DNA of 64,000 nt from Spirochaetota bacterium (GTDB lineage: Bacteria > Spirochaetota > UBA4802 > UBA5368), in contig DATIKU010000041.1 of assembly GCA_035477215.1 (NCBI GenBank), forward strand, positions 1-64,000, given 5' to 3'. The first letter of the stretch is position 1; each line of letters opens with the position of its first letter. Positions 4,453 through 14,483 of the stretch are shown one piece after another. The position numbers and the translations under genes are program-made. The notes under the pieces were generated by a model. It was not told the origin of the DNA and searched no databases. It saw only the letters and a list, made by a program, of their open reading frames with translations.

Positions 4453-4945
4453 TGGCTCCCTCCTGAATTGGTTTTGTGCGGCGGGTTTCTGGCGAATGAT
4501 CCGACGAACCGCCTCCCTCCCGCTCGAGGGAGCGCTCGAGACCGCCATACATCCCGCGGGACCGTCCGCCCTTGGTGAAGGGTGCGATGGAAATAGATGG
4601 GGACAAATCCCTCGTATCGCTCGAAAAGACGCGAGGGATGCGCACGCTTGATCGAATGCAGTATTGCCATCGAATTGGTCATTAGTCAAATACTTTTAAC
4701 TCAATAATTCCCGATAATTATTTTTGAAATATCAAAATGCGTTCTATATACTGGATATATTGCATCTCCCGGATATATTGGATTTTCCCCGCCTGCGGCG
4801 GGGGAAAACCGGCTTTATATCCAGCCAAGCAACAACTCTACCGTAAGCGGTTCGGTATTCCCGGCGCATGGACGTTTCCGCCCGCATCAGGCGATGGCCA
4901 TGACCGGTAAAACCAACAGGGGGAAGCGAATACCACGGAGGAATC
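4453..4945. other. Divergent intergenic region between AOR and its maturase
   Basis: This 493-base region separates two divergent genes and must hold both promoters. Its middle (about 4680-4790) is clearly more AT-rich than the surroundings. It contains the first copy of a dispersed hairpin repeat at 4787-4840. No gene is supported, although long frames cross it on both strands. Confidence 0.6.
4787..4840. repeat. Dispersed hairpin repeat, copy 1
   Basis: The 54-base unit starts with a hairpin, CCCCGCC-TGC-GGCGGGG, and continues into ACCGGCTT and ends ACTCTA. A second copy of equal length is at 25704-25757 with the same hairpin and end and about three quarters identity overall. Both are intergenic, as expected of REP-like elements. 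Confidence 0.6.
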
Positions 4946-6253
4946 GTGCTGACGCGTCCGAATCCGGCACTGAAAGAACACCCCTCGAAGCTCTTCGTCG
5001 AGATTACGACCAGGTGCAACCTGCGCTGTGCGATGTGTGTGAAGCAGAGCGGCGCCGCGTGCCTTCCTGAAGGCGACCTCTCGCGCGCGCACTTCGCCTC
5101 GCTCGAGGAGTGCATGGGGGGCCTCGATGCGCTGGTGCTTAACGGTATCGGCGAGCCGTTGCTCCATCCGGACCTCGAATACTTCATCGGCCGCGCCGGG
5201 TCGCTCATGCCGGCACACTCGTGGGTGGGATTTCAAACCAACGGATTTCTTCTGGACCAGCGGCGCGCCGATTCGATTATGGGAGCGGGCGCGCGACGCG
5301 TCTGCGTTTCGGTCGACGCCGTGTCCGCAAAGACCTTCAGCGCCGTGCGCGGCGTCGGCGACCCTTCCGTCGTCGGGAGTGCGCTCGCGGCGCTTGCAAG
5401 GGCCGCGGGCGAACAGGGGCGCGGCGACTTTATGCCGGGAATCGAGTTCGTGGCGATGCGCGAAAACATCGTAGAGCTTCCCGCGGTGATGGAGTGGGGG
5501 GCGCGCCTGGGCATACGCTTCGCCATCATCACCCAGCTTCTGCCGTACCAGCCCGCGATGCTTTCCGGAACCGCATACGACACCAGCACCGACGCGGCAC
5601 TCGTGTTTTACGAAAAATGGCGGCATCAGGCGCTCGCCGAAAAGATCGACATCTCCCGCTATTTCAACGTGTTCATGAAATTCATCCGCGATGATTCCGA
5701 GGAGCGGATCGTACGGCACGTAGACGCGATGGTCGCCGACGCCGCCGCCCACGGGATATCCCTCAACCTCAACTCCCTCATGGCGCGGGACGAAGCGATG
5801 CTCACCGGTGTGCAAAAGGCGCTGGAGCAGGCCGAACGCATCGCCCGCGAGAACGGCATCGAGCTCACGCTTCCCGGCACGGTGCCGAAAAGCGTTCGCC
5901 GCTGCGACTTCGTTGAAGAGGGCTCCGTTTTCGTATCCTGGGACGGAAAGGTCCACCCCTGCCATTTCCTCTGGCACCGCTTCCAGTGCTACCTGGGCGG
6001 TGTTGAGAACAACATTAAGCCGATGGTTTTCGGCGACCTGGGCCGCGATGGCATCCTCGCCATATGGAACGCGGCGGAATTCCGCACATTCAGGGAAAAC
6101 GTCATCCGCTACAATTTCCCCTTCTGCTACGACTGCAGCCTTGCGCTGTGCGACCTTGTCCAGACCGAAGACTTCGAACAGGACTGTTACATCACCGGAG
6201 TCCCGTGCGCCTCCTGCCTGTGGTGCACGGGCCTCTTCCACTGCCTGCGGTGA
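4946..6253 (+). CDS. Radical SAM/SPASM protein, probable tungsten-AOR cofactor maturase
   Basis: This 435-residue protein has the radical SAM cluster motif TRCNLRCAMC (CxxxCxxC) near residue 25 and a cysteine-rich C-terminal SPASM-type region (a HPC motif followed by clusters of Cys ending in CASCLWCTGLFHC) for auxiliary iron-sulfur clusters. Radical SAM/SPASM proteins encoded beside AOR genes are described as maturases of the tungsten cofactor oxidoreductase, and here it is divergent from AOR by about 490 bases. Translation appears to start at GTG 4946, preceded by GGAGGAA. The modification it performs is not known to me. Assignment to the maturase role rests on domain type plus neighbourhood. 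Confidence 0.82.
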   Translation: MLTRPNPALKEHPSKLFVEITTRCNLRCAMCVKQSGAACLPEGDLSRAHFASLEECMGGLDALVLNGIGEPLLHPDLEYFIGRAGSLMPAHSWVGFQTNGFLLDQRRADSIMGAGARRVCVSVDAVSAKTFSAVRGVGDPSVVGSALAALARAAGEQGRGDFMPGIEFVAMRENIVELPAVMEWGARLGIRFAIITQLLPYQPAMLSGTAYDTSTDAALVFYEKWRHQALAEKIDISRYFNVFMKFIRDDSEERIVRHVDAMVADAAAHGISLNLNSLMARDEAMLTGVQKALEQAERIARENGIELTLPGTVPKSVRRCDFVEEGSVFVSWDGKVHPCHFLWHRFQCYLGGVENNIKPMVFGDLGRDGILAIWNAAEFRTFRENVIRYNFPFCYDCSLALCDLVQTEDFEQDCYITGVPCASCLWCTGLFHCLR

Positions 6254-6443
6254 GGGCGGCCCCGGATACGGCCTTCCACCGCTCGTGTTTACTTTACCTC
6301 CGGCTATCGGTATATCTAATTGTCAGCATTGATCGGACGGGCATTCCGTGAATTTCGATGCATCCGTCCGGCGAAGGCGGGGGTCGGCGATATTCATCAG
6401 GCATGTGCCGCAGCTTGCGATAATCAAAGCGGGCGGTGTCATC

Positions 6444-6599: not shown

Positions 6600-8036
6600 A
6601 TGAAAGCCACCGTCATCGTCAAAAAGCTCGACACACCGCACCAGAGGGAGCCCTTCACGCGCTTCATGCCGCTGGGTGACGGAATGCCGGGCGCGGTCCG
6701 CGACGCTGTCGGGAGTATTTTCGACGAGCTCGGCGGAGCCTCTCTCCTTAAAGAGAGCCGCGAGGTGTACATCAAGCCCAACGCCGTCGATGCCAAGCCC
6801 TACAGCCACACCAGGGTCGAGGTGCTTCGCGAGATCATATCCTACTGGAAACGCGCCGGCGCTAAAAAGATATACCTCTTCGAAAACGCCACGCAGGCGA
6901 ACTTCACCCGGCTGGTCTACCGCGCCGCGGGCTACACCCGCCTCTGCCGCGAGACCGGCACCGTGCCCGTGTTCCTCGACGAGGAGAGGGGCCACGCGCT
7001 CTCCTTCACCGGCCGCACACCGGCCTCCGCCGCCAATCCGGACGGCTACGACCTCACCTCGTTCCTTATGCCCGACACCGTCATGAAGCTCATTCGCGAG
7101 CGCGAAAGGCACCTCTACATCAACGTGCCGAAGCTCAAGACCCACTCCATGGGCGTGGTGACGCTCGGCGTTAAAAACCAGTGGGGCTTCCCTATGCAGC
7201 GCAGCCGCGGCTATGACCACAACTACAACCTGCCGCACAAACTCGTCGACATACTCGGCTACATCCGGCCCGATGTCACGCTCATCGAGGGGGTGGAGGG
7301 CACGATCCACGGCCACTACTTCGCCACGGCGCTCGCCGACCGTCAGGTCAAGCCATTTTGCGTCATGTTGGCGAGCACCAATGTCGTCGCCGCCGACATA
7401 GTGGGCGCTCGCGTCTTCGGCCTTGGCATAAAGGATGTGCCGCACCTCGCGCTCGCGATTGAGCGCGGCCTCTCGAACGGCGTAAAGAGCGAGCGTGATA
7501 TTTCCCTTAGCGGCGACCTTAAAAGCCTGAAGAACATCGACCTCATCGGCGACATGCCGGCCTCCGGGCACTATCCCTGGGACCTCTATCCGCTCTTTCC
7601 GGACGACGTGCGCATTGTGAAGGGAACGAAGCTCGCCTGCCGCGAGGGCTGCGTCAACAATCCGCTCTGCGCCATGCAGACGATGTACCTCGACACCGCG
7701 GGCAAAGGAGGCTGGACTCTCCTGATGGGAAAGGGACACGACGAGGCTACGATCGGCTCCATCAGCGGGCGGGTGCTCGTCGCCGGGCACTGCGCCGTCG
7801 GGGAGGTTTCCGAACGGCTCATCCGCCGGCTCGGCCGGAAAAATGTCTACCTGAGCGGCGAGTGCAACGACCTCTCGGCCACCGCCGAGGCACTGTTTCA
7901 TTTAATGAAGGTCAACCCGGCAACGTACGTGCCTGTGAATCCGCTCGTCACGTTTTTCGAGTACCTCACCGCGCGTCTGAAGGGCTCGACCTCGCGCGTA
8001 CCGCATCCGTTTTCGCATGTGCTGAAGCGGGTATGA
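6600..8036 (+). CDS. DUF362 domain protein
   Basis: This 478-residue protein belongs to the DUF362 family, cytoplasmic proteins of unknown function often fused to or encoded near ferredoxin-type redox enzymes. Family features visible are an early VYIKPNAV stretch, an internal NVPKLKTHSM motif followed by GVKNQWG, and a later GVKSERDI region. Cysteines occur as CREGCVNNPLC and in GHCAVGE and SGEC, which could hold a metal or iron-sulfur centre. The ATG at 6600 follows GGGGA; the frame extends upstream into a decayed PCD start, which I leave out. It follows the radical SAM maturase on the same strand with a 346-base gap, so a link with the AOR cluster is plausible but unproven. Confidence 0.8.
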   Translation: MKATVIVKKLDTPHQREPFTRFMPLGDGMPGAVRDAVGSIFDELGGASLLKESREVYIKPNAVDAKPYSHTRVEVLREIISYWKRAGAKKIYLFENATQANFTRLVYRAAGYTRLCRETGTVPVFLDEERGHALSFTGRTPASAANPDGYDLTSFLMPDTVMKLIRERERHLYINVPKLKTHSMGVVTLGVKNQWGFPMQRSRGYDHNYNLPHKLVDILGYIRPDVTLIEGVEGTIHGHYFATALADRQVKPFCVMLASTNVVAADIVGARVFGLGIKDVPHLALAIERGLSNGVKSERDISLSGDLKSLKNIDLIGDMPASGHYPWDLYPLFPDDVRIVKGTKLACREGCVNNPLCAMQTMYLDTAGKGGWTLLMGKGHDEATIGSISGRVLVAGHCAVGEVSERLIRRLGRKNVYLSGECNDLSATAEALFHLMKVNPATYVPVNPLVTFFEYLTARLKGSTSRVPHPFSHVLKRV

Positions 8037-8041
8037 GGGGG

Positions 8042-8075
8042 CACGAAGGCGCACAAGCGTTTGTGCGCCTTCGTG
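8042..8075. terminator. 15-bp perfect hairpin after the DUF362 gene
   Basis: CACGAAGGCGCACAA (8042-8056) pairs perfectly with 8061-8075 around a four-base loop, six bases after the DUF362 stop codon. There is no T run, so it is either a factor-assisted terminator, an mRNA-stabilising hairpin or a small palindromic element. Confidence 0.55.
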
Positions 8076-8140
8076 GATGCCATGCTCAATCCCACTTGCG
8101 GAAATTCCGCAATTTTCAAAATCAATAAAAGGGGGATCGT

Positions 8141-8281
8141 ATGAATAGAAAAACTGCTATTGTCATTATCATGGTGTTATTATACTATATCTTAAATTAC
8201 ATATCCGTACCGGGTGAATGTGCTTTAGATACTGATAATTCGATAAAAACCGATTCCGTGGTGGTTTTAAAAATGAAATAA
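8141..8281 (+). CDS. Small 46-residue protein with N-terminal hydrophobic segment
   Basis: The ATG at 8141 has a strong ribosome-binding site (AAAGGGGGA, spacing 5). The 46 residues begin MNRKTAIVIIMVLLYYILNY, a charged start followed by a membrane segment or signal peptide, and end with a polar tail. Base composition is strongly AT-rich compared with the DUF362 gene and matches the patchy accessory segment that follows. It may be a true small membrane protein or the surviving signal peptide of a lost secreted protein. I do not recognise it. Confidence 0.4.
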   Translation: MNRKTAIVIIMVLLYYILNYISVPGECALDTDNSIKTDSVVVLKMK

Positions 8282-8453
8282 GTTAAATCCTTACAAATTG
8301 AGGATATTATTGCAATAAATTATAAAATCCGCACATTGCATCCGGTCTGACGAAGCTATGCGTTGGCCGCAGTTGGATATGAGACTCGTTAATCTAAAAT
8401 ACTTAGGAAAGTACCCTCTCTCCAGAGCATGTTTCCTCCCGACATAAGACATG

Positions 8454-8527
8454 ATATCGGAAGTTCACACACGAAACAAGTCCCTCGCACCTGCAAAAAG
8501 CCCCTTTACAGTGGCCTTAAAATTTTC
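8454..8527. repeat. Diverged third member of the 130-bp repeat family (3' half)
   Basis: This stretch shares the block TATCGGAAGTTC and the ending AAAAAG-CCCCT then GGCCTT-AAAATTT with the 3' half of the repeats at 11814-11943 and 13191-13320, with many changes between. It ends six bases before the patatin stop codon, as copy 1 ends just after the transporter gene. The rest of 8282-8532 holds nothing I can support. Confidence 0.4.
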
Positions 8528-8532
8528 GATCT

Positions 8533-9387
8533 CTACTCTCTGCTCTTAATAAACCACTTCCCGGAATTTATTCCCGACTTATAGGCCGCGCCCAGGAGGT
8601 GAACATCCTTTGTTGCCCTGCCGACATTAAGACCTTCTGGTGGAGCTATCTCATATATTTCAACACCGGCCGGTGGATTTTTTATAAAATCAACAGCATC
8701 CATATAAACCCTGTGGCGTCTCTGCATAGCATCCGCCAAACCGGGATACTTTCTAAAAAATAATGGAAAAAGAAATGATAGAGGACTCTTTTTTTTTATA
8801 TAACTGGACGGACGGGAACGTATAATTGTAATCTCATTCGCCCCACGCTTATATGCTTCGATAACGGGTATCGGATCAGCAATTCCCCCGTCAAGTGCAG
8901 GGACAGAATCCGCATAAAGAATATTCCGGTAGAGTACAGGGAGCGAACTTGAGATCTTTATATAATGTTCAAGATTTGACCTGTCCGGCTTGAGATAAAG
9001 CGGCAATCCGGAATCGAGTGATGTTGCAGCCACTAAGTACTCTTTCCCTTTATCATAGAGCCCGCTGAAAATCCGTTCAAGATCAAGCCTGCACTCCCTG
9101 ATTGTAATATCCCAGAGCCAGTCGAGATCCATATAATGACCTCCGGAAATAAACCTCAGCGGATTTATAAATCCGGCTGTGGCGGAGTAATTTACTGTTA
9201 CGTGATAATTTCTTTCGTGCTGTTGTGCAAGATGCGCGGCCAGGTTGCATGCCCCGGCCGAGACTCCTATGTACAGATCAAAGGGATCAAATCCTGATGT
9301 GCCGAAAGAATTAAGCACTCCGGCGGAGAATACTCCCCTCATACCGCCCCCCTCAACTACAAGTGCCGATCTGTTTTTACTATTCAT
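8533..9387 (-). CDS. Patatin-like phospholipase
   Basis: This 284-residue protein is a patatin-family acyl hydrolase that uses a Ser-Asp dyad on phospholipids or other acyl esters. The oxyanion motif EGGGMRG lies near residue 12, the nucleophile serine is in the GVSAG elbow near residue 43, and the catalytic aspartate is in LDGGIADP near residue 167. No signal peptide is visible, so it is probably cytoplasmic or peripheral. The ATG at 9387 is the natural start just before the first motif, although its ribosome-binding site is weak. The gene is visibly more AT-rich than most neighbours and lies between IS3 debris and a repeat, suggesting horizontal acquisition. Confidence 0.88.
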   Translation of the reverse strand: MNSKNRSALVVEGGGMRGVFSAGVLNSFGTSGFDPFDLYIGVSAGACNLAAHLAQQHERNYHVTVNYSATAGFINPLRFISGGHYMDLDWLWDITIRECRLDLERIFSGLYDKGKEYLVAATSLDSGLPLYLKPDRSNLEHYIKISSSLPVLYRNILYADSVPALDGGIADPIPVIEAYKRGANEITIIRSRPSSYIKKKSPLSFLFPLFFRKYPGLADAMQRRHRVYMDAVDFIKNPPAGVEIYEIAPPEGLNVGRATKDVHLLGAAYKSGINSGKWFIKSRE

Positions 9388-9414: not shown

Positions 9415-9633
9415 TGGACCGACCCCCTGAAACCGGAGTGACAAAACCGAGGGTTTTCGGAGAATACGGACATGATAAAAAGAACGCATTACCCCGAAGA
9501 ATTCAAGATAAAATTAAGTGAACCTCTAAAAATTCCTTTTGCTGCCGGTTTTCAGAAGAAATATAACAAAATCATCCGATCGAGAATCATATCAGAAAAA
9601 TATTTTACTCTCACTGATCTGTGGTGTTCATAA
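9415..9633 (+). mobile_element. Left-end remnant of an IS3-family element with OrfA start
   Basis: TGGACCGACCCCCTG at 9415 looks like an IS3-type left terminal repeat. The ATG at 9472 opens MIKRTHYPEEFKIKL, the characteristic start of IS3/IS911 OrfA, but after about 16 codons the resemblance stops, and the frame ends at 9633 after 53 codons. No OrfB or right end follows. A 10-bp perfect inverted repeat, TGATCTGTGG (9615-9624) with its complement at 9640-9649, marks the end of the frame. The rest of the gap to 9771 holds no gene. Confidence 0.6.
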
Positions 9634-9771: not shown

Positions 9772-10644
9772 ATGGAATACGAACAGCATTCGCGAATACT
9801 GGAAACCAATAGAACCGACAGCAGTATAGGGGCGCTGCTCATGCGTCCGTACATGATGCCGCTCATGGGATTCAGGGCCAAAGTAGGCCTGTTCATGGAC
9901 AAGGGAGAGTATATAGTCAAGGCCGCCGAAGACCAGCACGAGCTCGCACAGGCGCTGCGGCTCCGGCACGACGTGTTCATCGTGGAGCTCCTCGGCAGGA
10001 AAAAATTCTTCGGCATCGACATGGACCGCTACGACATGATGTGCGACCACCTGCTTGTGATGGACAAGCGGAGCGGTGAGTGTGTCGGGACCTACCGGCT
10101 CAATTCGAGCAGGTACTCTACGGAATTTTACTCGCAGACGGAGTTCGATCTGGGGACGCTGCCCGGCCTTCCGGATGAGAAGCTGGAGATCGGCAGGGCG
10201 TGCATCCGGCAGGAGTACCGCAAGAGCAACATGATGGGCCTGCTCTGGGAAGGGATTTACGCCTACCTTGCGAAGATACAGGCGCGCTACGTGTTCGGGT
10301 GCTCAAGCATCACGACCACGGAGCCTTTGCAGATCGCCCTGGTACACCGTTACCTGACAAGTTCCGGGTTCCACAGGACCGACCTGGGCATTCAGCCCCG
10401 CAAGAAATACCTGGTGAAGGATCTCGAAAGCAACATGAAGGTGATCGACCTGCTCGGGGAAGCGGCCGTCAAGGAGGCGGCAAGCAAACTGGTACCGAGG
10501 CTGATCCAAGACTATTTCACCTTCGGTGCCAGGATATGCGGTGAGCCCGCCGTCGACAAGAATTTCAAATGCATGGACGTGTTCACTATTCTGGACATGA
10601 AGAACCTTAATGACTCGTATAGGGAAGAGAGGTTTGTGAAATAG
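9772..10644 (+). CDS. GNAT-fold acyltransferase, ornithine-lipid OlsB-like
   Basis: This 290-residue protein resembles the acyltransferase family that includes OlsB, which attaches a 3-hydroxyacyl chain from acyl carrier protein to the alpha-amino group of ornithine in the first step of ornithine-lipid synthesis. Family features are LRLRHDVFIVELLG near residue 65, CVGTYRLNSS, and the LEIGRACIRQEYRKS segment followed by LWEGIYAYL. The ATG at 9772 has GGAG nine bases upstream. A long C-terminal region after residue 200 lacks motifs I can name. The next gene is an alpha/beta hydrolase in the same direction. No OlsA follows, so a complete ornithine-lipid pathway cannot be claimed from this window, and another acyl-amino acid product is possible. 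Confidence 0.72.
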   Translation: MEYEQHSRILETNRTDSSIGALLMRPYMMPLMGFRAKVGLFMDKGEYIVKAAEDQHELAQALRLRHDVFIVELLGRKKFFGIDMDRYDMMCDHLLVMDKRSGECVGTYRLNSSRYSTEFYSQTEFDLGTLPGLPDEKLEIGRACIRQEYRKSNMMGLLWEGIYAYLAKIQARYVFGCSSITTTEPLQIALVHRYLTSSGFHRTDLGIQPRKKYLVKDLESNMKVIDLLGEAAVKEAASKLVPRLIQDYFTFGARICGEPAVDKNFKCMDVFTILDMKNLNDSYREERFVK

Positions 10645-10736
10645 CGGTGATGTCCGCGTACGAAAACCGCGGCCGGTCATAAACGGTATGTTTACCGGCC
10701 TTACGAAACATCCTGATCCAAGGGAGATTGCCTGAT

Positions 10737-11780
10737 ATGCGTTCGTATATCGATGCGGTCAAATTTATTGTACACAGCCTGTTGGGCGACCGGCTGAAAG
10801 CCACCGTAAAGGAACAGCCGCTCGGCGCCGGCGATGAACTGCTGGACTCCTTCGTGTACCTGCCAAGGCGGAAAACGCCCAGGGGCACGATCCTCGCGAT
10901 CCATGGCATGGCGGCGCGCGCCCATAACGATCCGAGGCTCAGCGTGATCTGCAGGGCCTTCTCGGCCTGCGGGTACGCGGTGGTATCTCCCCTGTACCCT
11001 GATATCGCCGGTTTCAGGATCGATTCCGGAACGATCGACCGGATCGTGGACACGGTAAAGGCGGTTACGGCGGACAAAGGGCTCTGCCCCGGCGGAAAGC
11101 TGTCGATCTTCGCGCCCTCGTTCTCGGCCGGCATGGCCATGATCGCCGCTTCGCAAGCGGAGGTCCGGGATATGGTGGATTCCATCTGCTCCGTGGGTAC
11201 CTACAGCAACGTCGATTCCGCCGTGGAATACCTGCTGGCGGGACAGGATATCGACGACTACGGGCGGCTTATCATCCTCAGGAATTTTATCACCCATGCC
11301 CCCGGGTTCAGCAAAAATATACCCGATGTCCTGCATGCGGGCATCCTTGACAACGGGCTCCACCGGAGCGTTCCGGAGCTGCCTTTGCACCTGGAGCGTC
11401 TCTCCGGCAGGGAACGGCGTAAGCTAACAAGGCTCCTCGGCGAGCCCGATTTCCGCCTGATGCAGTGGCAGCGCATTCTCGAGCGTTCGCGCAAGATCCG
11501 AAAGCTACTCCGGGATCTCTCGGTGGTGTCGAGGCTCGAGGGACTCCGGGCGCCGGTGGCCCTTATTCACGGGGCAGAAGACCGGGTAATACCGCCGACG
11601 GAATCGATCCTGCTGAACGACCGTCTCAGGCACCACAAGGTGAGGTCGCGCCTGGTCATAACGCCGCTCCTCAGTCACGGCGATATTTCCATGGGACTCA
11701 ACGCGATCATGGAGATACTGCGGGTGGTATGGCTCTTCGCGTTCTTTTTCCATCACGCCTCCGCAAGGGAAGCGGCATGA
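10737..11780 (+). CDS. Alpha/beta hydrolase
   Basis: This 347-residue protein has an alpha/beta-hydrolase fold. The strand-turn GTILAIHGMAARAHNDPR supplies the oxyanion region, FAPSFSAGMAM carries the nucleophile elbow (SFSAG instead of a strict GxSxG), HGAEDRVIPP holds the acid and LLSHGDISMG the histidine. A TTG at 10728 is in frame, but AGGGAG at 10721-10726 is correctly spaced only for the ATG at 10737, so I use that. It follows the OlsB-like gene by about 90 bases and may share its transcript, hinting at lipid or ester turnover, but the substrate is unknown. A hydrophobic C-terminal segment (VVWLFAFFF) may touch the membrane. Confidence 0.75.
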   Translation: MRSYIDAVKFIVHSLLGDRLKATVKEQPLGAGDELLDSFVYLPRRKTPRGTILAIHGMAARAHNDPRLSVICRAFSACGYAVVSPLYPDIAGFRIDSGTIDRIVDTVKAVTADKGLCPGGKLSIFAPSFSAGMAMIAASQAEVRDMVDSICSVGTYSNVDSAVEYLLAGQDIDDYGRLIILRNFITHAPGFSKNIPDVLHAGILDNGLHRSVPELPLHLERLSGRERRKLTRLLGEPDFRLMQWQRILERSRKIRKLLRDLSVVSRLEGLRAPVALIHGAEDRVIPPTESILLNDRLRHHKVRSRLVITPLLSHGDISMGLNAIMEILRVVWLFAFFFHHASAREAA

Positions 11781-11813
11781 ACAGGAAGCGCGGCCTTATC
11801 CGTTAAACTTAAA

Positions 11814-11943
11814 AATATCCAGTAAACTGCGTCACCCCTGCGGCGCAAGGTTCCGCGGCATAATACCGCTTATCGGAAGTTCCCCCTTTGAAAAAGCCTT
11901 CTCCTGCCAACAAAAAGACCCCTGTCCGGGGCCTTTAAAATTT
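11814..11943. repeat. 130-bp direct repeat, copy 1 (downstream of the transporter)
   Basis: This unit matches 13191-13320 over its full 130 bases without gaps, with 11 differences counted by eye (about 92% identity). It contains CGGCATAATACCG and further short inverted repeats, and ends with a GGCCCC-GGACA-GGGGTC hairpin plus T run that reads as a terminator on the minus strand, just after the transporter stop codon. Confidence 0.85.
11918..11943 (-). terminator. Terminator hairpin inside repeat copy 1
   Basis: On the minus strand GCCCC-GGACA-GGGGTC is followed by TTTTTG, a plausible Rho-independent terminator 27 bases beyond the transporter stop codon. The same hairpin is present in copy 2. 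Confidence 0.55.
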
Positions 11944-11970
11944 AGAATAATTTTTTATTTAACTTCTAAC

Positions 11971-13173
11971 TTAACTTTCCTTTAGTTGCGGCTTGTTGAC
12001 AAAAAAAGCCATAACAACTGCAATCAGGCATAAGACAAAAGCAATTGTAAATGCTTGAGTAAATTCGAATTTACCGGCTAAACGGGTTCCTACTATACCT
12101 GCGACCCCGAAAGCAAATATAACAGCGCCGTAGTTTTTCCCCATATTTTCAGTGCCAAAATAATCTGTCGTAAGCGCTGGAAAAGTTGCCAAAAACCCTC
12201 CGAAGCAAAAACCTACCAATGAACCCAGAGCTAAAAAGCTTACATAATTCATTTCGATATGGCTCATCAAAAACATTGCCAATGCCATCAAAGCAAACAT
12301 TGCCGTTAATGCCCGGATTCTGCCAATTTTGTCTGAAATAGCACCCCAAATAATTCTTCCCATTGAATTAAATAAAGCTATTGCGACTACAACATTAGCG
12401 GCAACAACCGCATCCAGTTTAACTAAATCCGTTCCAATATTTACGGCTACACTGATTACCAGAAGACCCGCTATACAGCCAAAATGAAACATAAGCCAAA
12501 TTAAATAGAACTGTTTAGTTTTGACCATCTGCCCGGTTGTAAAATTCACGTTTTCAGCCACTGCCGATCCAACTGGCGGTGTCCAGCCCGAAGGCCTGTA
12601 ATCGACTGGGGGCGTGGTCAGCAATTGAGCTGCTACCAGAAGAATGATAAAATACGCTATACCTAAATACAAAAAGGTACTGCCCACCCCATAACTTGCT
12701 ATGAGAGATAAGACTATAGGTTTTGATAACATTGCACCAGCGCCGAAGCCTGTAACAGCTATTCCACTGATTAAACCGCGTTTATCCGGGAACCATTTTA
12801 TACAGGTTGCCAATGCAGGACCATAAATCAGGCCTGTCCCCAAACCGGCTAAAACACCATAGTATAAATATAGTTGCCACATTTGTGCAACAGTACTGGA
12901 TAACATTAACCCGATACCAAATAATATCGCACCTGCCGTAGCAACCTTTCTGGGGCCTACCTTATCATAGATCCCGCCACCAATTATTCCCGCTATACAC
13001 ATAAAGATAATAGTAATCCCGAAAGTTAAGGCTACACCTCCCAAATCCCAACTCGGATTCGCTTTTAATAAAGGAATATTATACAAGCTCCAGGCGTAAA
13101 CTCCCCCTACGCACAGCATCATAATAAATGCTACTAAAACCATACCCCAACGATTGATTAATTTTTTCTCCAC
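11971..13173 (-). CDS. MFS transporter of the oxalate/formate antiporter (OFA) type
   Basis: This 400-residue integral membrane protein has about twelve hydrophobic segments and the start typical of OFA-family members (NRWGMVLVAFIMMLCVGGVYAWSLYN). The MFS loop motif appears as GGGIYDKVGPRKVA after segment two and again as WGAISDKIGRIRA in the second half. OFA members exchange or take up small carboxylates such as oxalate, formate, lactate or pyruvate; the substrate here is unknown. Translation starts at GTG 13173 with AGGAG seven bases upstream. The gene is markedly AT-richer than its surroundings and is flanked by two 130-bp direct repeats, so it looks recently acquired. Confidence 0.88.
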   Translation of the reverse strand: MEKKLINRWGMVLVAFIMMLCVGGVYAWSLYNIPLLKANPSWDLGGVALTFGITIIFMCIAGIIGGGIYDKVGPRKVATAGAILFGIGLMLSSTVAQMWQLYLYYGVLAGLGTGLIYGPALATCIKWFPDKRGLISGIAVTGFGAGAMLSKPIVLSLIASYGVGSTFLYLGIAYFIILLVAAQLLTTPPVDYRPSGWTPPVGSAVAENVNFTTGQMVKTKQFYLIWLMFHFGCIAGLLVISVAVNIGTDLVKLDAVVAANVVVAIALFNSMGRIIWGAISDKIGRIRALTAMFALMALAMFLMSHIEMNYVSFLALGSLVGFCFGGFLATFPALTTDYFGTENMGKNYGAVIFAFGVAGIVGTRLAGKFEFTQAFTIAFVLCLIAVVMAFFVNKPQLKES

Positions 13174-13190
13174 TTTAGCTCTCCTTTTTT

Positions 13191-13320
13191 AATATCCAGG
13201 AAACTGCGTCTCCCCTGCGGCGCAAAGCTCTTCGGCATAATACCGCTTATCGGAAGTTCCCCCTTTGGAAAAGCCTTCTCCTGTCGACAAAAAACCCCCT
13301 GTCCGGGGCCTTTAAAATTT
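13191..13320. repeat. 130-bp direct repeat, copy 2 (upstream of the transporter)
   Basis: Direct-orientation partner of 11814-11943, with its end at the same TTTAAAATTT. It lies just upstream of the transporter ribosome-binding site and 130 bases beyond the end of the IS91 remnant, so each member of the family follows the 3' end of a leftward gene or gene remnant. Confidence 0.85.
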
Positions 13321-13450
13321 CGCCCCGCTCAAAATCGCGGCATTTTAATGCCCCATGAATGCGCATATCACTGCAGTTTATCATATGATGCAACCAGCAG
13401 AAAAAAGTCAATAATTATATTCTTTTGGCAAGTAACGATATTCGTGAGTT

Positions 13451-14013
13451 TCACGGCCCTCGTATCATGGGCCTGAAATAGCCTTTGTAGAGGCAGTATT
13501 CCCTCCTCATACGGTGCCAGACCTGCTCGGCGTTATAGCCATACACCACCGACGGGTGCATTTCCGTTCCGCAATCCGGGCATTTTTCAGGATCTGCATC
13601 GTAACTGTGTTCAATCGCCGACTTTTAGGTGGCGCTGGTACTCGTTTGGAGTTTCTCCACGACTCCGTGCGCGTAGATGCCGTAGTAGCGGATCATCTTC
13701 TGGTGCTTTTTCGGCAGAAAGTGGAGCATTTTGGCCATGAACTCGTATACATCCATGGTGACGGTTTTGTAGCTTTTCTCCTTGGCGCGTACATCGAGCC
13801 AGCTCTTGTAGCGGAACATGACGGTCTTCTTCGCGTGATTCACGGCCGTAATCTGGCTCTTATGGAAATAGCCGGATGCAAGATACTCCGCGGTGCAGAA
13901 AAATACTTCGCTTTCCGTACCGATAATCGGCTTAAAGTCGTCGGTAACGCCCATGTGGAGGGCCCTGTTGTCGGCGTTTGTCACAATATATACATAGCAG
14001 ATTTACCCGACAT
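13451..14013 (-). pseudogene. Chimeric remnant: GIY-YIG start joined to IS91-type transposase end
   Basis: An ATG at 14013 with AAAGGAG before it opens MSGKSAMYI; after a frameshift near 13985 the text continues VTNADNRALHMGVTDD, the opening of a GIY-YIG endonuclease domain. From about 13918 onward the reading changes to the C-terminal part of an IS91/Y2-type transposase (FRYKSW, then LHFLPKKHQKMIRYYGIYAHG). A TAA at 13625-13627 interrupts it in frame, and the same frame continues with EHSYDADPEKCPDCG and a tail ending at 13451, as IS91 transposases do. It is a fusion of two decayed genes. Assignments are by motif resemblance. Confidence 0.6.
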
Positions 14014-14483
14014 ACGCGCTCCTTTCCGCTTTTCCGCGCATCGTCTTTCTTTTCTTCTGTCTTTCCATTGAATGCGGGAGGGGGCCTGGGCTCAAAAAAG
14101 AACTTCGACCGGCTTTACGGGCTCGCGGGGCTCCTCGGCGGCGAAACGGGCGCCACGCGCGTGCACGGGCACAGAGGGCACGCCCATCTTCCAAACGCGC
14201 TATTCCGGCTTCCCTCCTCCGAGATGGAGACGTACAGTTGAGCGTTTTCATGATTACGGCCTTTTGCCTCATGAGACCGCCACCTCGCTCGGCTCCCCGC
14301 GATGAACCGGTTCAGTTCTCCACCTTTTCGCTTTGCTCTCTTCTTCCTTATTTCCAGAGCCAAAATATTTCTTTGGCTCCACCATAGGATGGCACAGGTA
14401 CACCCGGATTTCGCAACCCTCCGGATCCCCGTAAAAATTCCCAAATTAATATTGACAGGCAGGCCCCTCCGGGGCATAGAACG
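14014..14483. other. Intergenic region without supported genes
   Basis: About 470 bases between the transposase remnant and the transhydrogenase operator. Frames on both strands are open but lack starts with ribosome-binding sites and recognisable protein sequence. A second TTGACA occurs at 14452-14457 but has only CATAGA at the proper -10 distance, so I do not call a promoter there. Confidence 0.5.

Follow-up and report, generated by a model that had tools for sequence, protein, structure and literature searches.

The mobilisation of adjacent genes is attributed to rolling-circle elements such as IS91, ISCR and Helitrons, chiefly on the basis of clinical plasmids. Canonical IS91 uses two catalytic tyrosines in a Y-x3-Y arrangement (Y249 and Y253), and the IS91 family inserts next to GAAC/CAAG-type tetranucleotides without target duplication. 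In IS91 and IS801, transposition by an HUH transposase with an IS91 zinc-binding domain starts at the 3' (ori) end, which is constant and essential. Termination can fail or come early, leaving 5'-truncated fragments, and DNA 5' of the element can travel, with up to 1.4 kb of the immediately upstream DNA carried along (PMC3189936, PMC5714925). ISCR elements have an oriIS/terIS layout, outward signals in the oriIS region and passenger genes attributed to rolling-circle transposition (PMC13393415, PMC6218425). Gene carriage by rolling-circle elements is already known.

The spirochaete elements described here share with IS801 and IS91 the type of transposase, the 5'-truncated derivatives and the constant 3' end, and resemble ISCR in the features listed above. 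Unlike in IS801 and IS91, the approximately 130-bp 3' end recurs alone in many copies, is sharply delimited on its inner side and, in arrays of uniform orientation, bounds single genes; unlike in ISCR, the arrays consist of solo ori ends, not of whole elements beside resistance genes. A search of titles and abstracts in the open-licence literature returned no paper on arrays of solo IS91-type ends bounding single genes. We consider it probable that IS91-type rolling-circle elements of a spirochaete lineage have this repeat as their 3' terminus (oriIS position), and that the two copies around a transporter gene bound a passenger unit of one-ended transposition.

The locus lies in a 64-kb stretch of spirochaete DNA, which as a whole is referred to as the window. 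Two 130-nt direct repeats (11814-11943 and 13191-13320) are 92% identical, and the BLAST match between them (E 4.9e-48) excludes chance. A preliminary description had reported two full-length copies of this identity, each with a minus-strand terminator, framing an AT-rich transporter gene. The coordinates and identity were reproduced, both copies are predicted to contain a GC hairpin with a T-run after it, and the GC content of the transporter gene is about 0.42, against about 0.6 in the flanks. A third, diverged copy had been overlooked; 7 bp separate it from the end of a patatin-like gene, likely a passenger (Table 1). The order is thus transposase remnant (13984-13454), ori, transporter, ori, further genes ending with the patatin gene, ori. 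The acyltransferase and alpha/beta-hydrolase-like genes between copies 2 and 3 may each be either cargo or resident; homologues of the latter are scattered among the relatives. For the region 11700-13500, Rfam yielded no family match up to E 1. RNAalifold on an alignment of 20 copies predicted no pairs, and covariation analysis of the repeat was swamped by subfamily signal. The repeat-transporter-repeat unit was unmatched in plasmid and phage collections.

The transporter, of 400 aa, scored 430 bits against NF049980, the curated NCBIfam model for L-lactate MFS transporters (cut-off 320), and fell below the cut-offs of the oxalate/formate models. The earlier label of OFA transporter therefore holds for the wider group and not as a specific name; judged by these models, the protein is best named a putative SfMCT-type L-lactate MFS transporter of the OFA superfamily. 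Its closest same-genus match is only 36% identical.

Table 1. Features of the repeat array in the window and, in the last row, a segment from loci L252 and L258
Feature	Location	Strand	Remarks
OriIS-like repeat copy 3, diverged	8397-8525	minus	nhmmer E 1.7e-9 initially, E 3.9e-24 after iteration of the profile
Patatin-like phospholipase gene	8533-9387	minus	Pfam Patatin PF01734 and DUF6363; GC 0.45
Acyltransferase gene, OlsB-like (below curated cut-off)	9772-10644	plus	between copies 2 and 3
Alpha/beta-hydrolase-like gene	10728-11780	plus	between copies 2 and 3; weak Pfam Hydrolase_4
OriIS-like repeat copy 2	about 11813-11943	minus	terminator hairpin just past the transporter stop codon
MFS transporter gene, passenger, AT-rich	11971-13173	minus	PF07690; NF049980 above cut-off
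OriIS-like repeat copy 1	about 13190-13320	minus	adjoins the transposase remnant
Spacer, transposase stop to repeat	13321-13453	minus	similarity to other transposase-bearing copies spans the spacer (blastn)
IS91-type (HUH) transposase remnant, 5'-truncated	13454-13984	minus	Pfam Y2_Tnp PF04986, E 2e-11
TerIS-like stem-loop segment and solo copies	L252 5784-5850, 4676-4723, 11040-11087; L258 9818-9865		

Other remnants were noted in the window. Upstream of the patatin gene, a short stretch (9473-9530) appears by eye to be the start of an IS3-type OrfA (MIKRTHYPEEFKIKL). Beyond the transposase remnant, 14074-14376 is a remnant of etfA, of which the first 89 bp (14074-14162) are 97% identical to etfA of genome G004. 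The rest of etfA and its etfB/acyl-CoA dehydrogenase neighbours, present in G001, are missing beside pntA.

BLAST detected few copies of the repeat. Using a sequence-only profile built from 20 copies (profile A2), 17 copies were found in the window's own genome and at least one copy in 20 of the 59 related genomes; all of the genomes compared are drafts, mostly MAGs. The counts were 26 in G004, 29 in G005, 42 in G007, 18 in G010 and 28 in G023, so that well-populated genomes hold 17-42 solo copies, and 112 copies were located across 50 fetched loci. The profile is sharply bounded, by about TTAATATCCAGGAAA on one side and CCTTAAAATTT on the other. Many copies are isolated, and some lie at the end of resident genes or cut them (L029, L088). 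Such solo copies, sharp-ended on both sides and carrying a terminator, are what would be expected of MITE- or REP-like non-autonomous IS derivatives that insert alone, for example as terminators behind genes; the genes would then be bystanders and the arrays a coincidence or hot spots. REP/BIME sequences with their TnpA-REP (RAYT) enzymes are likewise hairpin-rich repeats linked to an HUH enzyme and spread genome-wide. Unlike in those systems, the transposase here belongs to the Y2_Tnp/Zn_Tnp_IS91 type, the repeat forms the 3' end of an IS, and co-oriented copies have genes between them.

The link to a transposase emerged from the flanks of the repeat. Segments beside its TTAAAATTT end match each other at many loci, and what they have in common turned out to be the 3' portion of a gene for an IS91-type transposase. 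The repeat lies just 3' of this gene at all 19 loci that have the transposase 3' end, the window included; the distance from stop codon to repeat is 129-159 bp at 18 of them and 63 bp at one with a truncated repeat. This fixed place makes the repeat the element's 3' terminus, at the oriIS position, and the case for its identity as an IS end is strong. Two full elements (L075 and L169, 80% identical) align from approximately 60 bp before the start codon to the repeat end. Many copies of the transposase have lost their 5' part, so that they begin at residues 237-374, and keep the 3' end; this supports the assignment and resembles the one-ended transposition of IS801 (PMC3189936). The remnant in the window is 76% identical to residues 237-412 of a 412-aa full-length transposase (L085:5888-7123). 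The repeat and Y2_Tnp also co-occur by genome (14 of 20 versus 9 of 39; Fisher p 7e-4). The window's own genome yielded two transposase fragments and no intact transposase, and supply in trans is therefore assumed. Two other candidates were set aside. A Xer/dif-like core (CATAA-N6-TTATC), suggested by the alignment near the centre of the repeat, is not conserved among diverged copies and was dropped given the transposase link, and a composite transposon would comprise two complete IS copies, where the window has only 130-bp ends and one truncated transposase.

The full-length transposase scored 141 bits against the IS91 model NF033538 (cut-off 125), and both PF04986 and PF14319, the IS91 zinc-binding domain, exceeded their cut-offs. 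Its match to the ISCR model, which covers clade Ia only, was marginal (26 bits versus a cut-off of 925), unlike that of an ISCR element. The HUH motif PHVH is invariant in the alignment, as is Y269 in the motif EYLAAGYFHNS. Unlike in IS91, the second catalytic tyrosine is not conserved: its position is an invariant glycine, and the tyrosine one residue beyond that glycine is not conserved. As the second tyrosine of IS91 is absent, we call the element IS91-like and not a canonical Y2 IS91. The canonical arrangement, YLSRY, is present in an unrelated Y2 element (L131). At that locus (G013:C68, 359-2456), the canonical IS91-type transposase adjoins a 290-aa tyrosine recombinase on the same strand, and integrase-like proteins of roughly 360 aa, similar to this recombinase, occur in many of these genomes. 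No GAAC/CAAG-type target was seen at the ori junction. Outside the ori end there is no conserved tetranucleotide, and a TTAA-like string at the ori edge may belong to the target or to the ori. The empty sites are too diverged for base-exact junctions.

Among 60 neighbouring pairs less than 6 kb apart, 58 were co-oriented; the other two both involve weak or truncated matches. The loci for this count had been chosen for having several copies, not for orientation. From the orientation of genes relative to the repeat (63:36), about 54% co-orientation would be expected, and the observed 58:2 gives p 2e-13. Repeat-bounded segments are lower in GC than their flanks at 28 of 32 loci (p 3e-7). Between neighbouring copies there are usually one or few genes, although several units hold more than one gene in mixed orientations. 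The cargo varies from unit to unit: a penicillin amidase, an amidohydrolase, a membrane transporter, a TPM-domain protein, a homologue of the 2-hydroxyglutaryl-CoA dehydratase D-component, an RND efflux pump with its outer-membrane channel, hybrid histidine kinases and an AAA ATPase. In four pairs the repeats are directly adjacent, separated by -1 to 3 bp, which looks as though a unit had inserted precisely where its neighbour ends. At a further locus (L072, 5537-8695), a tandem duplication of approximately 1 kb (87% identity) lies between two co-oriented repeats and is very AT-rich (GC 0.38). Independent insertion of MITE- or REP-like repeats should give random orientation, contrary to the 58:2 count, and would not make the bounded segments compositionally distinct; we regard that explanation as unlikely. 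The co-oriented arrays with single foreign genes suggest instead that the element collects and moves other genes. The search of the genome and its relatives that the preliminary description had proposed thus uncovered many co-oriented units of gene plus repeat. Its alternative of an ordinary terminator scattered without relation to gene gain does not agree with copies that are tied to transposase 3' ends, are co-oriented and flank lower-GC genes.

Roughly one foreign gene per unit between co-oriented sites of approximately 130 bp, in arrays, is also the layout of integrons and of CALINs, the attC clusters without integrase. Nevertheless, it is very improbable that the array is a chromosomal integron cassette array with the repeat as its attC site. 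The IntI integrase model (TIGR02249) exceeded its cut-off only in G015, G020 and G055, none of which has repeat matches, and thus in no repeat-bearing genome. In the alignments, the repeat ends are without RYYYAAC/GTTRRRY core boxes, and the whole site forms no strong single-strand hairpin (mean folding z -0.6 to -1.3). Instead of a tyrosine recombinase, the enzyme linked to the repeat is an HUH transposase. The proteins of G015, G020 and G055 (L056-L058) are true integron integrases of three related spirochaete genomes.

For 13 sites, the two flanks were joined and compared with genomes of the same genus. One site showed a clean gain. In G000:C47 (L087), about 1.7 kb lies between a permease gene and a convergent nitrilase gene, comprising one radical-SAM gene (4687-5757) with one repeat behind it (5845-5977). 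The permease and nitrilase genes are adjacent, 50-80 bp apart, in G001, G003 and G004. This insert is the predicted unit of gene plus ori. The C-terminus of the nitrilase is altered only in G000, which favours gain in that genome. Approximately 37 bp between repeat and nitrilase and an uncertain stretch on the 5' side remain unaligned, so the junctions are not base-exact. A gene present with a single repeat where three relatives are without both argues further against solo MITE- or REP-like insertion and contradicts the scattered-terminator alternative. It also refines the earlier idea of a mobile unit: the direction was right, and the unit appears to be a gene with one repeat and not a segment excised by recombination between two.

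In G004:C171 (L103), a repeat-TPM gene-repeat segment replaces about 270 bp, with an antitoxin-like ORF, of G001 and G002, and homology to these genomes resumes at the inner end of the repeat. In G000:C14 (L088, about 6130-6229), the place of a cyclase gene that adjoins a flagellar-type gene cluster in G001, G002 and G004 is taken by a single repeat; repeats therefore mark losses too. At the same boundary in G004, a transposase remnant and a repeat are inserted. A translocation of segment X, considered for this site, was rejected as the relatives show the lost cyclase gene instead. Single repeats also occur at deletion or rearrangement junctions. A joined-flank search in G005, G007, G010 and G023 turned up no other clean empty site. 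Among the relatives there was neither an empty site for the transporter nor a strain with one copy and no transporter, because the island is missing in its entirety from their corresponding region and most of etfA has been lost from the window.

The loss in G000:C14 bears on a further explanation, in which the repeats spread first as IS remnants and homologous recombination then brought in, duplicated and deleted genes between them. Some pairs are long and similar enough for this, such as the two repeats around the transporter and three near-identical copies at L066, and a deletion between copies, as the preliminary description had envisaged, is possible by analogy with the cyclase gene; no such case was seen for the transporter. 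On the other hand, many neighbouring copies are only about 70-76% identical and are thus poor substrates for homologous recombination, and recombination by itself leaves the gene with only one repeat in G000:C47 unexplained. We judge this origin of the arrays to be improbable, somewhat more so than insertion of solo MITE- or REP-like repeats.

The same layout recurs with diverged ends. Searched with the transposase alignment, GTDB contigs yielded 23 loci. Their hosts are spirochaetes, Turneriella and Leptospiraceae MAGs among them, plus a single Latescibacterota MAG. At the Turneriella locus L252, a 126-bp segment 3' of the transposase (7361-7486) is repeated co-directionally at 10693-10818 (98%), 3.2 kb away with three ORFs between. 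A Leptospiraceae locus (L253) has a 127-bp end (7488-7614), one ORF (7742-8305), a second copy (8640-8764) and a tandem third (8762-8888). In G008, a further spirochaete (L263), a 126-bp end occurs again at 5856-5981 (100%) and 6240-6348 (96%). These independent lineages each repeat a different end of their own co-directionally; the window-type profile did not detect L253 and had no match in L252, so that the layout recurs with ends of diverged sequence. Turneriella also carries a GC-rich, terIS-like stem-loop segment 5' of the transposase, with solo copies of approximately 48 bp (Table 1). Finally, at a Leptospiraceae locus (L256), a palindromic 130-bp CACAGAG-type repeat (1355-1484 and 5054-5183, 98% identical) lies behind a transposase fragment. 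It may be a separate repeat family, and was left out as a further example of repeated ends since by eye it resembles a common palindromic repeat.

Returning to one-ended transposition from the IS91-like 3' terminus, the arrays could arise as follows. An HUH transposase supplied in trans would nick the outer end of a solo ori. Replication would displace a strand that spans the ori and the gene on its 5' side (in the orientation of the transposase), and this strand would be cut at the next ori or at another terminator. The single-stranded unit of gene plus ori would then insert elsewhere, often right at the outer end of another ori. Repeated insertion at ori ends would produce tnp-ori-gene-ori-gene-ori arrays, matching the order in the window, and integron-like arrays would thereby be built without an integrase. 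The scheme draws on the anatomy of the element, the co-orientation and lower GC of the units, the exact tandem oris and one polymorphism of a gene with one ori, all of which were observed directly. From these we infer where the nick falls, in which direction the strand is transferred, that the intermediate is single-stranded and that the transporter arrived by one-ended transposition; the units would also be actively mobile. The sharp inner boundary common to the solo copies, at AAATTTTAA, is not explained by one-ended transposition alone, and the 130-bp segment may itself contain a termination signal. A more far-reaching possibility, which we put forward tentatively, is that spirochaetes hold an HUH-based, integron-like platform for gene capture. 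A portable ori of approximately 130 bp would both start and stop transfer, the genes between co-oriented copies would be cassettes, and new ones would enter at the ori behind the transposase.

In natural environmental spirochaete genomes, numerous events of this kind are seen next to one another, and their compact ends lend themselves to comparison between lineages. If the proposed mechanism is correct, it would represent a second, integrase-free route to gene-cassette arrays, and where rolling-circle transposition stops and how genes are picked up would become testable questions.
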